Assembly (NCBI GenBank): GCA_025360125.1
Contig: JANYCU010000011.1
Span: forward strand, 1-64,000
DNA: 64,000 nucleotides
DNA from: Armatimonadota bacterium
GTDB taxonomy: Bacteria > Armatimonadota > Fimbriimonadia > Fimbriimonadales > Fimbriimonadaceae
Direction of reading: 5' to 3'
The notes under the pieces were generated by a model, which ran no database searches, was not told the DNA's origin, and saw nothing but the letters and a program-made list of their open reading frames with translations. The translations under genes were made by a program, and so were the position numbers. The stretch's first letter is position 1, and each line of letters starts with the position of its first letter. Positions 24,483 to 30,501 of this stretch are shown piece after piece.

Positions 24483-27311
24483 ATGTCATCCGGTCGATTG
24501 GACGTAATCAGCATCATTCCTGGCCCCAAAAATGTGGCCAGACTGGTCCAGCGATTTGGGAAAAACGACTATGGAATCGTGACTTCGCTCAGCGATTCGC
24601 AATTACCGATGCTTCGAGCCGAACTCGATGATCAGACCTTGGTCGATGTTAAGTCGTTTGGCGAGGTGGTTCATCAAGTTCACCGAATGACGGGTTTCCC
24701 TAGCCGCCGAATTGCGACTTCGCGCCAGATACTTACCGCCATCGGCCTTGTTTGCTCGAAGATTGACGCTAGTAGTCCGTTCCGAAAGGTTGCCGACATG
24801 GCGGGATTTCACGAGTGTCTGTTAGAAATCTTTCGTGAGGCGGGGCAATGGGGGGTGATCGGAACAGATAACCATGATCTTGGCAAGATAATCAAAAGTC
24901 ACCCTGAATTAGTCAAAGTGAGTGAATTGGTTGAACTCTTTAATGATGTCATCCAGATTCTTGAAAAAGCCAACGCGACCATCGTCTCGAAGATGATTGC
25001 TGAGTGCCTGGATTCGACCATTGATATGGATGGTCAAGACTCGCGGTTGCTTTTCTTTATGGGGAGCACGATTCACCCAGCCGCAATTAAGTGGATTCAT
25101 TGGTTGGTCGCAGAAGGCGCTGAGGTCCAGATTATTTTGGATCGTCATGCTACGGACGGTGACATTTTTCATCTGAGCAATGTCGTAGCGAAGGAGTTTG
25201 GCGAAACGCCAGCCGCACCGGGAGCAGGTACCAAGCTTCTCAATAACCTATTTGCGAAATCGGAATCCCACGGAGTAGATCTTGATTGGGTGGAGGTTCA
25301 TTGTTGCGGAGACCCTTTGTCGGAATCCGAATGGGCCTTGAGGAAGTGTATTGAGATCAATAATTTCTCGAAAACTGCAATTTTGACTCGGAACATCGAT
25401 CAATACGGTCCAATTTTGATTCACGCTGGCGAGAGTCTCGGAGTACCCATTGACACTCGACGTCGGATTCCCCTTTTGGCGAGCGGATTTGCTAAAGTCA
25501 CGCTGTCGATATTGCGAGCGATTGCGAGCGACGATGTACGAGATTTAGTGAATCCGTTTCGAACTTCGTATTTCGGAGTGTCGGATGTAACCGAGCTCCT
25601 CGACTCAGCCCACTCGAGTCCATTGAACGATTGGGAAGAGCTTATCGCGGAGGTAGCGAAGCTCGACGAATCGGATGAGTACTTGGTGCAGGCGCTTCAA
25701 TACGTGATTGCCTTCCGGCTTAGGAGTCTTGAACGCGGGCGCAGCTTCGCCGAATGGCACGCCGAGCTTAAGCAGTTTTTGGAAGGTGCTCCCTGGCAAA
25801 AAAATGCTCAGGAGAGGGACCTTCGGGCTCAGACTTCCCTGCTTTCTAATCTGGCTCAGGATGCGACGATTCAGCTCATTCAAAACCCGGATGCCATGTC
25901 CTATGGTTCTTGGCTGAACCACGCTGATTCGGTCTGGCAAAGAAGTGACGTTAGTGTTCCTAGTGAGGAAGACGGCATTCTGCTGGTTTCATCTCCCGAG
26001 GAGCTTGGCGAGATTGAATACTTGCTGGTTCTGGGAATGCTCGAAGGATCTTTTCCTCGTCGACGGTCGGAAAATCCAATCCTTAGTGATGACCTGAAAA
26101 AGGGAATTTCTGGCCTAATTAAGGGTCCTGCATTTAACGATTCATTTGACGTTGCGAAAAGTGAGCGAGATATTTTCTACCGAGTTTGTGCTTGCCCATC
26201 GAAAGCTCTTTATTTTAGCTATCCGATGTCCGATGGTGAAAGCGACAATGTTCCAGCTTTCTACCTTGAAGAAATCCGGCGAATTTGTCAGACTGGGGAG
26301 GTTATTGTCCATCCGCGACGGCACTTAACCCCACCGACCGATCAGTGCAAATCGGAATATGATCGGGAGTTATCGGCTCGGTTAAGCACGGCAACTCCGA
26401 GGCCAGTAAACAATGTTTTGGTTGATCCTCGCGCGATCGAGTTAGTCCGGTTTGACATGAAGAACGTGCAGCCGAGAACGCTACGATCGTTGGTTGACTG
26501 CAATTATAAATTTGCCGCCGAACGCTTGGTCCCTGAGCACCATCAGCCAAGCGACCATTGGGGTCGGATGCTGGAAGTTCCTCGCCGGGCAAATCTCCTG
26601 ACGATCACGAATGAAAAACAAGCAAAGGCAGAAATGAACCAAGTTCTGATTGCCTACCTCGATGAACTTCGACCCCAGCTTCCAGCATGGGAGTTTGATA
26701 TGATTGAACACGGATCATCTCGGTTAATCGAGGGACTTATTGAGCGAGAGTTTTTGTCTCGCGAGGTATGGGGGCGGGACCCATTGAATACGAAGCTTGA
26801 CCTTAAATTTGGGGATCCACAATTGAATCCCGAAATATTTAAGTACCAATTGACGGGTAGGGTGGCAGGAATCACCGATCAAAATGGAATTCGGACCATT
26901 CACCTGTATCGACGGACTCCTCCGAAAGACCCAAAGGAAGAGGCGCTGGACAAATATTTGATTGAATATGGGATGTATTTTGCCGCGGCATGGTACGGAG
27001 TGACCGAAGTGCGCGTTGAGATTGACGGTCTCAGCGAGCACCGAACGACACTGCTGTTTTCTGACACCCAGACGCTTGAGAAGCGAGCGGACCAACTACT
27101 GGTCCTTAACCTCGCGCGGCAATTTGGAAATAAGACCGAACTGGCGGAGGGTATCAAGAATTTGTTGAGGGCTCCAAAAGCGATCGCGGTTTCTGGTCAA
27201 ATGATGGCTCGGGCGGGTGACCATTGCCAGTATTGTTCTTTTACCGACCTCTGTCGCCAGTCACAGGGGAGTTCTGAGGAGTTTAGCGATCTGGGAGTAA
27301 CCAATGGTTAG
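24483..27311 (+). CDS. AddB-like helicase/nuclease subunit with degenerate nuclease motifs
   Basis: This 942-residue protein has the AddB/RecC-like plan: an inactivated helicase-like body without a Walker A motif at the N-terminus, the block LLVLGMLEGSFPRRRSENPILSDD near residue 520, then SERDIFYRVCACPSKALYFSYP, and a C-terminal RecB-type nuclease fold. The four iron-sulfur cysteines of AddB are kept (C673 in VDCNYKF; C915, C918, C924). The nuclease residues are not: the usual GRIDRID is GRVAGIT (792-798) and the usual DYKTG region is IHLYRRT (806-812), so the metal-binding Asp and the Lys are gone. It overlaps the helicase gene by 8 bases, so the two form a coupled pair for DNA end processing or recombination. 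Confidence 0.75.
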   Translation: MSSGRLDVISIIPGPKNVARLVQRFGKNDYGIVTSLSDSQLPMLRAELDDQTLVDVKSFGEVVHQVHRMTGFPSRRIATSRQILTAIGLVCSKIDASSPFRKVADMAGFHECLLEIFREAGQWGVIGTDNHDLGKIIKSHPELVKVSELVELFNDVIQILEKANATIVSKMIAECLDSTIDMDGQDSRLLFFMGSTIHPAAIKWIHWLVAEGAEVQIILDRHATDGDIFHLSNVVAKEFGETPAAPGAGTKLLNNLFAKSESHGVDLDWVEVHCCGDPLSESEWALRKCIEINNFSKTAILTRNIDQYGPILIHAGESLGVPIDTRRRIPLLASGFAKVTLSILRAIASDDVRDLVNPFRTSYFGVSDVTELLDSAHSSPLNDWEELIAEVAKLDESDEYLVQALQYVIAFRLRSLERGRSFAEWHAELKQFLEGAPWQKNAQERDLRAQTSLLSNLAQDATIQLIQNPDAMSYGSWLNHADSVWQRSDVSVPSEEDGILLVSSPEELGEIEYLLVLGMLEGSFPRRRSENPILSDDLKKGISGLIKGPAFNDSFDVAKSERDIFYRVCACPSKALYFSYPMSDGESDNVPAFYLEEIRRICQTGEVIVHPRRHLTPPTDQCKSEYDRELSARLSTATPRPVNNVLVDPRAIELVRFDMKNVQPRTLRSLVDCNYKFAAERLVPEHHQPSDHWGRMLEVPRRANLLTITNEKQAKAEMNQVLIAYLDELRPQLPAWEFDMIEHGSSRLIEGLIEREFLSREVWGRDPLNTKLDLKFGDPQLNPEIFKYQLTGRVAGITDQNGIRTIHLYRRTPPKDPKEEALDKYLIEYGMYFAAAWYGVTEVRVEIDGLSEHRTTLLFSDTQTLEKRADQLLVLNLARQFGNKTELAEGIKNLLRAPKAIAVSGQMMARAGDHCQYCSFTDLCRQSQGSSEEFSDLGVTNG

Positions 27312-29586
27312 AACTGCAACTGACGAACAAAAAGAGATCATCAACAAAGAGGATGGATTCTCGGTTGTTTTGGCGTCAGCCGGATCGGGAAAGACATTTG
27401 TTGTTGTTGAGCGATATTTGCGGATGGTTCGAGATTTTGGAGTTCGTCCATCTCAGATTCTGACGATCACGTTTACCAAAAAGGCAGCGGCGGAAATGAA
27501 GCGCCGGATTGTTGACCGACTTTTTGATGAAGAGCTCTTTGACCAAGCTCAAGAGGCCGAGACTGGCCCGATTCAGACGATTCACTCGTTCTACGAGAGG
27601 TTGTTGCGGGAGAACTCAGTTGAAGCGGGAATTGACCCAAAATTTGATCTTGCCCTCGGAGCGGAATCTGATCGGCTTAAGCGCGATGCAGTGCGCTCGG
27701 TCATTAATTTGTCGGAGGACGACGAAAATGAGCTGATCCCTCTGTTTGTCAAGTTTTCAGTTGGAAAGTCCGAATACGGAATGAATGGAGCTTACGAAAA
27801 GCTCGAAAAAGAGACCATTGGCATTTTGAATCAAATGCGGTGCAGCGGCCACGAGCCCGGTTACTTTGAGGAACTTTATGAGAGCGGCCCGGTCTATTTG
27901 GAATTGACTCATAAGGCTTTAATTGCACGACTACCCGAATATATGAGGAACGCCATCACTGAACAGCCAGGCAGCGATTGGCGAGATGTTGCTTGGCAGG
28001 AGGCGGGAAAAATGAGAGGCGAGAAGTCCAAGTACCCTTGGCTCAAAGTCTCGCAAGATGAAGAGTTAACGATCGCAAACTTAACCTGTGGACTGGCCCA
28101 ACTTGCCTTGCGCGCATGGACTCGGTACGAAACCTTGCTCAGCCAGGATCAGAAAATCGATTTTGACGGCATGGAGAGCCGGGCCGTTCGGTTGATTGAG
28201 AATTCTGTTCAAGTAAAGAATCGAGTTTCGAAGCAATTTTTACATGTCATTGTCGATGAATCTCAGGATCTCAATCGGAATCAATTTCGCTTATTTGACG
28301 CCATTGACAGCAAATCGAAGATGCTAGTTGGTGATGGTAAACAGTCCATATATGCCTTCCGGAACGCTGACGTTGAAACGTTTAATGATCGGGCGAAGGA
28401 TGGGTATTTGAAACTCTCGATGAACTTTCGGTCCAGTGAGTCGATCATCAACATGGTTGACGTTGTGTTTAGTGAGGCGTTCGGGCCAGAGAAATATTTC
28501 ACCTCAAACCGCTACGATGTCTTCGAGAAACAGCTGAGTTTTGAGGGAGTTGAGCGAGTTCACCTTAGTTCAAAAGAGAATTGGAGCGAGCTTGCCGAAT
28601 TTATCGCCGATGAGCGCGCCAATAACATCGAACGCAGTTCAACCTCGATATTGGTACGCATTCACAAAGTTGCAGAAGCAATTGAGGCGAGGCTCAAAGG
28701 GGCTGGAATTGATGTTCGAATGAACGCGGGGCAATCCAAATTCTTTGCTCGTTCTGAGGTGCGAGACCTAGTCAATTCACTTTTGTCGGTCTCTTCGGCA
28801 GGCGACTATTTTGCCTGGCTATCAACGTTGAGGAGTCCAATTGTGGGAATTTCGCTCGACGGGATTGTTCTGCTGGCGAAGCCGGACACGACCTTACCGC
28901 TCAGCGAAGAAGACCAAGAAAAGCTGGATCGATTTAGCTCATGGTTTCTGGAATTAAGAAACCAGGTTGACCATGTTCCGGCAAGCGAAGTGTTGTCGAA
29001 AATCATCAACAAATCGGACTTATTTGCGAATTTGCTTTCGCTGACCGAAGGACGTCGCCGAATTGAAAATGTTCGGAAACTCTTGCTGTTGGCGATGGAT
29101 GCTCCGGAGCTTTCGGCGAGGGAATTTGCCGAGCAGATTCGTAATATTGAAAGACTTCGGCACGACGAAGGAGATGCGGCCACTACGGACGACTCGGAGG
29201 ACCTAGTGACCCTCGTCAATATCCACAAAGCAAAGGGATTGGAATGGGATACCGTAATCCTTGCCGACGGGATGAATCACAAGTCATTCAATGTTAATTC
29301 TCCAGTTTTTGACGCTGAAACTGGTTGGATTGGCTATTGGCAAAACAAGTCATCTACTTACGCTGCGGAGTATCTCAGGAAGGTGCAATCTCAAATCGAC
29401 AAAGAAGAGCTTTTGCGGCTTCAGTATGTCGCGATGACCCGAGCGAAGAAGCGGTTGATTCTTGTGACATGGGGAGACTCATCGGCGGGCCTTATTGGAG
29501 TCATTCGAAATGCGCTTGGACAATCGGCTTTTGATTCATTGAAGACCTGGCGTAGCCAGCAACCTGGGTCTGATCTCCGAAATTAG
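27304..29586 (+). CDS. UvrD/AddA-like superfamily 1 helicase lacking a nuclease domain
   Basis: This 760-residue SF1A helicase has all motifs: Q-like TDEQKEII, Walker A ASAGSGKT (residues 24-31), Ia TITFTKKAAAEMKRRI, Walker B VIVDESQDLNRNQF (near 315), III LVGDGKQSIYAFRNAD, IV SMNFRSSE, V VTLVNIHKAKGLEWDTV and VI QYVAMTRAKKRL (about 706-717). Only about 43 residues follow motif VI, whereas AddA and RecB have a further 300 or more carrying the nuclease. Overlap with the AddB-like gene points to an AddAB-type complex rather than a stand-alone UvrD. With its partner also degenerate, the complex may unwind without cutting. Confidence 0.85.
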   Translation: MVRTATDEQKEIINKEDGFSVVLASAGSGKTFVVVERYLRMVRDFGVRPSQILTITFTKKAAAEMKRRIVDRLFDEELFDQAQEAETGPIQTIHSFYERLLRENSVEAGIDPKFDLALGAESDRLKRDAVRSVINLSEDDENELIPLFVKFSVGKSEYGMNGAYEKLEKETIGILNQMRCSGHEPGYFEELYESGPVYLELTHKALIARLPEYMRNAITEQPGSDWRDVAWQEAGKMRGEKSKYPWLKVSQDEELTIANLTCGLAQLALRAWTRYETLLSQDQKIDFDGMESRAVRLIENSVQVKNRVSKQFLHVIVDESQDLNRNQFRLFDAIDSKSKMLVGDGKQSIYAFRNADVETFNDRAKDGYLKLSMNFRSSESIINMVDVVFSEAFGPEKYFTSNRYDVFEKQLSFEGVERVHLSSKENWSELAEFIADERANNIERSSTSILVRIHKVAEAIEARLKGAGIDVRMNAGQSKFFARSEVRDLVNSLLSVSSAGDYFAWLSTLRSPIVGISLDGIVLLAKPDTTLPLSEEDQEKLDRFSSWFLELRNQVDHVPASEVLSKIINKSDLFANLLSLTEGRRRIENVRKLLLLAMDAPELSAREFAEQIRNIERLRHDEGDAATTDDSEDLVTLVNIHKAKGLEWDTVILADGMNHKSFNVNSPVFDAETGWIGYWQNKSSTYAAEYLRKVQSQIDKEELLRLQYVAMTRAKKRLILVTWGDSSAGLIGVIRNALGQSAFDSLKTWRSQQPGSDLRN

Positions 29587-29640: not shown

Positions 29641-30501
29641 GTGACTGTCTCGGTTGGCATCGTTCAATTTTCTCCCGACAAGGGCAAGCTTGATGGCAAC
29701 CTCGACCGGATTGCCGAGCATCTGATTCAGTGCGCTGCCGAGGGAATTCAGTTAGCGATTTTTCCGGAGACGTGTACGACGGGATATTTCCTGGAAGGCG
29801 GAGTTGTTGAGCTTGCAATCACTTCGGAGGAGTTGACCAAAAAACTTCAAGACCGGCTGGTCGGGAAAGTTTCGAATCCTCTTGAATTTGCCCTTGGATT
29901 TTATGAACTATTGGGTGGAAACATCTACAATTCGGCGGCCTTTTGTCGATTTGATGGGACGAGTATTCAGTGTTTAGATACCTATCAAAAATTCTTTCTT
30001 CCTACTTATGGGGTTTTTGATGAAGACCGATTTGTGTCGAAGGGGCATAGTCTCTGCGTTCTTGACTCGGTGGTTGGCCGAACGGGGATCATGATTTGCG
30101 AGGATGTTTGGCATTCGGTTCTACCGACTCTTAATGCCGTGGCGGGGGCGACGGCAATGATCATTCCTTCGGCGTCTCCGGCGAGGGGTTTTAGGCCAGA
30201 CCACATTGAGAACCACGAGCGGTATTCTCGGCTCGTCCGCGGTATTTCGGAAGAGCACGGAGTTTATTCTTTCGTCGCACAGTTAGTTGGGCACGAAGGC
30301 GGAAAGGGGTTTGTCGGCGGCTCGATGATCTGTGACCCATTGGGGCGGATTTTGGTCGAGGCTCCGGTTGGAGTTGAGGCAATTATTCGGGCGGATATTG
30401 ACCTGGAGTTAGTTGCGATCGCTCGGGCTCAGACGCCGTTGATCTCTGATTTGCAGTCGAGTTGGGCGAGTCTGTTGAAAATTGCGAATCAAATCGATTA
30501 G
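29641..30501 (+). CDS. Nitrilase/amidase family carbon-nitrogen hydrolase
   Basis: This 286-residue protein has the complete Glu-Lys-Cys triad of the nitrilase superfamily: Glu in IFPETCTTGY, Lys in YQKFFLPTYGVFDEDRF and Cys in GIMICEDVWH. The YQK.FLP.YGVFDE.R block resembles the glutamine amidase domain of NAD synthetase more than omega-amidases. It stands alone, without the ATP-pyrophosphatase half or an adjacent NadE gene. The start is GTG at 29641. It lies 54 bases after the helicase gene in the same direction, but a functional link is not evident. The substrate is unknown. Confidence 0.82.
   Translation: MTVSVGIVQFSPDKGKLDGNLDRIAEHLIQCAAEGIQLAIFPETCTTGYFLEGGVVELAITSEELTKKLQDRLVGKVSNPLEFALGFYELLGGNIYNSAAFCRFDGTSIQCLDTYQKFFLPTYGVFDEDRFVSKGHSLCVLDSVVGRTGIMICEDVWHSVLPTLNAVAGATAMIIPSASPARGFRPDHIENHERYSRLVRGISEEHGVYSFVAQLVGHEGGKGFVGGSMICDPLGRILVEAPVGVEAIIRADIDLELVAIARAQTPLISDLQSSWASLLKIANQID

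Follow-up and report, generated by a model that had tools for sequence, protein, structure and literature searches.

The well-studied bacterial processors of DNA ends, RecBCD, AddAB, and AdnAB, join a helicase and a nuclease in one complex. In Bacillus subtilis AddAB (PDB 3u44), AddA is the SF1A motor and AddB consists of an inactive helicase-like core and a C-terminal Fe-S nuclease fold; this enzyme has one motor and two nucleases, one per strand, with AddA cutting the 3' strand and AddB the 5' strand (PMC4824097). Escherichia coli RecC has an inactivated helicase and an inactivated nuclease domain that were kept for DNA handling, the latter as a hoop (PMC1185551). E. coli RecB1080CD, a point mutant made in the laboratory and less fit, is a processive end helicase without nuclease activity or RecA loading, and recombination in this recB1080 background proceeds with RecJ and RecFOR as partners (PMC3375238).

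The gene pair described here lies in a 64,000-nucleotide stretch of DNA from a member of the Fimbriimonadia (Armatimonadota), referred to as the window. The pair resembles B. subtilis AddAB in its SF1A motor and in an AddB built of an inactive helicase-like core and a C-terminal Fe-S nuclease fold, but this Fimbriimonas-type pair has no nuclease where the B. subtilis enzyme has two. As in RecC, inactivated helicase and nuclease domains have been retained; unlike RecC, whose partner RecB has a live nuclease, the window AddB keeps its Fe-S cysteines and is paired with an AddA that has no nuclease domain. RecC is not known to have an Fe-S cluster. The pair would share with RecB1080CD the character of an end helicase without a nuclease that is served by RecJ and RecFOR, but it is natural, long established, and spread over two families. 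Other Fimbriimonadia and Armatimonadota have a single-nuclease AddAB from the same gene families, also with a nuclease-less AddA, but with an intact AddB active site in all 12 proteins read in the class.

An AddB with substituted catalytic residues and conserved cysteines

The addB-like gene (24483..27311, forward strand) encodes a 942-residue member of the AddB family, in which both the helicase-like region and the PD-(D/E)xK domain are inactive; the Walker A motif has been lost too. It is a distant AddB, matched by TIGR02773 (addB_Gpos) at residues 510-606 with an E-value of 2.1e-5. A phmmer search matched it to B. subtilis AddB (3u44_B), which its live relatives, meaning those with an intact active site, matched with an E-value of 1.1e-82. 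Profile-profile comparison of live AddBs with the window AddB group gave a probability of 100 and an E-value of 1.5e-90 over 900 columns, and AddB homology was found across the whole protein, with a conserved helicase-like core.

The C-terminal nuclease-fold domain (residues 650-942; 26430..27308, forward strand) is without catalytic residues. The Pfam model PDDEXK_1 matched it weakly, at residues 667-925, and also matched all 27 inactive domains of the clade that were tested. Between inactive and live nuclease domains, which align from end to end, profile-profile alignment gave a probability of 99.9 and an E-value of 7.5e-34 over 278 columns. The initial annotation had read GRVAGIT (residues 792-798; 26856..26876, forward strand) and LYRR (residues 808-811; 26904..26915, forward strand) as degenerate forms of GRIDRID and DYK. 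This was confirmed, as both face the GxxDRxD and DYK motifs of live AddBs in the alignment, with GRVAGIT opposite GxxDRxD and YRR opposite YKL. Each of the catalytic positions H, D, D, D, K, and Q is substituted, and the active PD-(D/E)xK site of an AddAB enzyme is absent from this subunit. With the domain alone as query, a PDB sequence search returned no meaningful match. A structural model of the domain, built from a shallow alignment of two sequences, had a pLDDT of 39 and was not used for a fold search.

The four cysteines of the iron-sulfur staple were found exactly where they had been annotated: Cys673 (26499..26501, forward strand) and, together with an invariant Arg925, Cys915, Cys918, and Cys924 (27225..27257, forward strand). 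They would form a putative cluster, as in AddAB. Cys673 is present in 70 of 70 inactive AddBs and the other three in 69 of 70, the lone exception (L054) having unread bases there; all 12 live AddBs have all four. An alignment of 27 diverse inactive domains has no invariant columns beyond the four cysteines, Arg925, and two others, and over the whole AddB the cysteines are among about 14 positions that are at least 97% conserved. Both DNA-end binding and AddB domain integrity depend on the Fe-S cluster (PMC7311471, PMC7430649), and work cited in one of these papers reports that loss of the cluster impairs binding of AddAB to double-stranded DNA (PMC7311471).

A helicase partner without a nuclease domain

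The addA-like gene (27304..29586, forward strand) is co-directional with addB and encodes a 760-residue, complete SF1A helicase. The two genes share 8 bases, ATGGTTAG (27304..27311, forward strand), at the stop of addB and the start of addA, in agreement with the initial annotation. Pfam assigned UvrD-helicase (1.4e-51) and UvrD_C (1.7e-31) domains and no PDDEXK or other nuclease domain, and the best named model was TIGR02785 addA (addA_Gpos; 7.2e-64), placing the protein in the AddA/RecB/PcrA group of SF1A helicases. All SF1 helicase motifs are present, as AddAB requires of its motor, and they are invariant across the clade in the sequences read. The protein ends 46 residues past YVAMTRA (motif VI), close to the previous estimate of about 43, and the nuclease domain found at the C-terminus of AddA in AddAB enzymes is absent. 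The earlier description of the partner as a complete helicase lacking this domain therefore stands. A reading of the pair as a defense system was rejected: AddA gave only generic UvrD matches (GajB and a DRT helicase), and AddB had none.

Distribution and history of the loss

Of 113 genomes in the class Fimbriimonadia, 111 have an AddB and 111 are matched by the AddA query. We read 82 AddBs with their neighborhoods, 70 from families f1 and f2 (35 genera) and 12 from families f3, f4, and f5. In f1 and f2, AddA almost always comes immediately after AddB; the two are unlinked in f3 and f5. In nearly all Fimbriimonadia, AddA is about 735-930 residues long, too short to include a nuclease. All 12 AddBs of f3, f4, and f5 have the His, the GxxDRxD Asps, the DYK Asp and Lys, and the Gln and Tyr that follow. 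In f1 and f2 the active site is lost in 70 of 70 AddBs, each of which retains at most two of the four key residues: the His remains in 1, the GxxDRxD Asps in 18 and 0, the DYK Asp and Lys in 4 each, the Gln in 0, and the Tyr in 17. This pattern, 70 of 70 in two families and 0 of 12 in their sister families, is far from chance, although the 70 are counts of species and not independent events, the loss being one event. The annotated loss of both AddAB nuclease activities is thus supported by a clade-wide comparison of sequences, and we regard the loss as well supported. The pair appears broken in only a few members of the clade, one of them G038, where a TAG stop splits addA (L091).

A tree was built from the AddB core, with the nuclease domain left out, and was rooted on other Armatimonadota. 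On this tree, loss of the AddB active site is one change, at the base of a single clade with a support of 100 and a long stem; the AddB nuclease was lost once, in an ancestor shared by f1 and f2. The AddA nuclease is absent throughout the Fimbriimonadia and also from several Armatimonadota families outside the class. Among the other Armatimonadota families, f12, f13, and f19 have an AddA without the nuclease and a live AddB, while AddA carries a nuclease in f21 and f32. The simplest order is that the AddA nuclease went first and that of AddB later, in the f1/f2 ancestor, so that two nucleases became one (AddB) and then none.

The inactive domain and both genes are under strong purifying selection. 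In two close pairs, dN/dS of the inactive domain was about 0.07 (L057/L059, dN 0.024 and dS 0.339; L051/L052, dN 0.076 and dS 1.037), and values were similar in the rest of AddB and in AddA. Given this ratio, the domain appears to have a role other than cutting.

Candidate nucleases in the rest of the genome

A second complete AddAB or RecBCD would have counted against the initial annotation, and family-by-family profile searches detected none in this assembly, which is rated 98.6% complete. Only three UvrD-type genes were found: UvrD/PcrA, the window AddA, and an IrrE-UvrD protein of a mobile element. No AddA or RecB whose PDDEXK domain is intact, as RecBCD would have, is among the three. The IrrE-UvrD protein (1145 residues; L119:10526-13963, G000:C56) joins an IrrE-like peptidase to a UvrD helicase and is encoded near an integrase-like gene. 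Its C-terminus has Fe-S-type cysteines and a weak partial match to the nuclease fold, with no visible GxxDRxD or DxK motifs, and looks like a second, independent case of a helicase joined to an inactive Fe-S nuclease fold, as judged from its sequence.

The initial annotation had also raised the prospect of a separate nuclease encoded elsewhere, and there are candidates. RecJ, RecF, RecO, RecR, and RecQ were all found in the window's own genome. The PD-(D/E)xK_1 matches above the cut-off were a standalone 253-residue protein, a Cas4-like protein of a mobile element, and two similar gene fragments at contig starts (G000:C30:65-235 and G000:C40:59-235), the latter pointing to a mobile element that is repeated at the ends of contigs. 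The standalone protein (L120:5124-5885, G000:C22) is an AddB-like Fe-S PD-(D/E)xK protein in which the GRVDRLD and DYK motifs are intact and Fe-S-type cysteines are present, and its best NCBIfam match is TIGR02786 (AddB nuclease region; 8.8e-10). Comparable standalone frames occur in most Fimbriimonadia genomes. Sister families with a live AddB have RecJ, RecF, and the standalone nuclease to the same extent, so the loss is not linked to the gain of a gene. For the same reason, the standalone nuclease was rejected as a replacement gained when the AddB nuclease was lost. Neither RecJ nor the standalone nuclease is specific to the inactive clade and, therefore, the sequence data favor neither.

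In the loci read, the addAB pair has no conserved nuclease gene beside it. The neighbors are a small protein and a carbon-nitrogen hydrolase (29641..30501, forward strand; PF00795, 8.5e-25) that lies downstream of addA on the same strand in 33 loci and is probably unrelated to the pair in function.

Proposed mechanism and alternatives

We propose, with a probability of about 0.7, that the pair is a nuclease-free AddAB, an end-unwinding helicase that has kept its Fe-S staple and passes the strands to a nuclease acting in trans. By homology, the Fe-S-stapled AddB domain would bind double-strand ends while AddA powers unwinding in the 3'-5' direction, and AddB would do no more than grip and split the strands in the manner of RecC. 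The window AddAB would thus unwind DNA without degrading it. We infer that the unwound 5' strand is then handed off to be trimmed in trans, most likely by RecJ with the standalone AddB-like Fe-S nuclease as second candidate, after which RecFOR would load RecA; this is also where we would place the cellular role of the pair. On balance, we find it probable that a natural nuclease-free AddAB became fixed through the history of two families, with a staple fold that only binds and splits breaks and with resection by RecJ or the standalone nuclease, comparable to the BLM/EXO1-type resection of eukaryotes.

It is possible, though we doubt it, that the holoenzyme is a three-part helicase-nuclease, with AddAB recruiting the 253-residue protein as a dedicated subunit. 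The intact motifs and cysteines of that protein, its match to the AddB nuclease region, and its presence in most genomes of the class would fit. In one f5 genome (G112) it is even encoded on the addB strand, two genes upstream (L160:4769-5584), with a gene for a 338-residue CorA-type transporter-like protein between them. However, such proximity to addB was seen in only about two genomes and chance may explain it, and the protein is as common alongside a live AddB, so it did not arise as a replacement. Slightly less likely still is that the pair has left break resection and serves as a helicase or remodeler elsewhere. It might, for instance, act on stalled forks, remove RecA or other proteins from DNA, or supply CRISPR adaptation, for which E. 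coli RecBCD needs its helicase only (PMC6212769). Some members of the clade, G016, G018, and G084 among them, bear on this, since they carry, beside the inactive pair, a second, divergent AddAB with PD-(D/E)xK in both subunits (L153, L154, and L155); the two can coexist and redundancy is not required. The window genome, like most members, is without a second AddAB or RecBCD, which makes the inactive pair the sole AddAB-type end processor found there. A second AddAB is possible also at L158 and L169 (G027 and G033).

It is very unlikely that the domain with the nuclease fold has its active site at a new position and continues to cut DNA. E756 and R925 are nearly invariant, but they are equally conserved in live AddBs beside a normal active site and so are no replacement; the alternative Asp-Asp/Glu-Lys site that could have overturned the initial annotation was sought in the alignment, and no acidic pair with a Lys is conserved in the inactive clade. 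A decaying pseudogene pair, replaced by another system, would account for the lost catalytic residues. We give this reading almost no credence, given reading frames that are intact in nearly all genomes, invariant cysteines, the low dN/dS, and the lack of any replacement found in the window genome, and it is already refuted as far as sequence can do so.

Significance

As a helicase-only clade of at least 70 species, the families with a nuclease-free AddAB indicate that the joining of helicase and nuclease is not essential in nature. Their AddAB is also a natural separation-of-function enzyme, in which the role of the Fe-S staple could be studied apart from cutting. For AddABs with inactive nucleases, our search of the open-access literature found only the RecC paper, and an earlier mention is possible; a paper on gene neutralization in Wolbachia was set aside as a precedent because its subject is ruvA.

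The clade further offers a test of whether Chi control is useful when there is no nuclease to control. A mapping of the Chi latch onto its AddBs is suggestive only: in the alignment, the acid and base that correspond to the E129-R629 latch are kept in 55 of 70 inactive AddBs, and the acid is not conserved in their live relatives.
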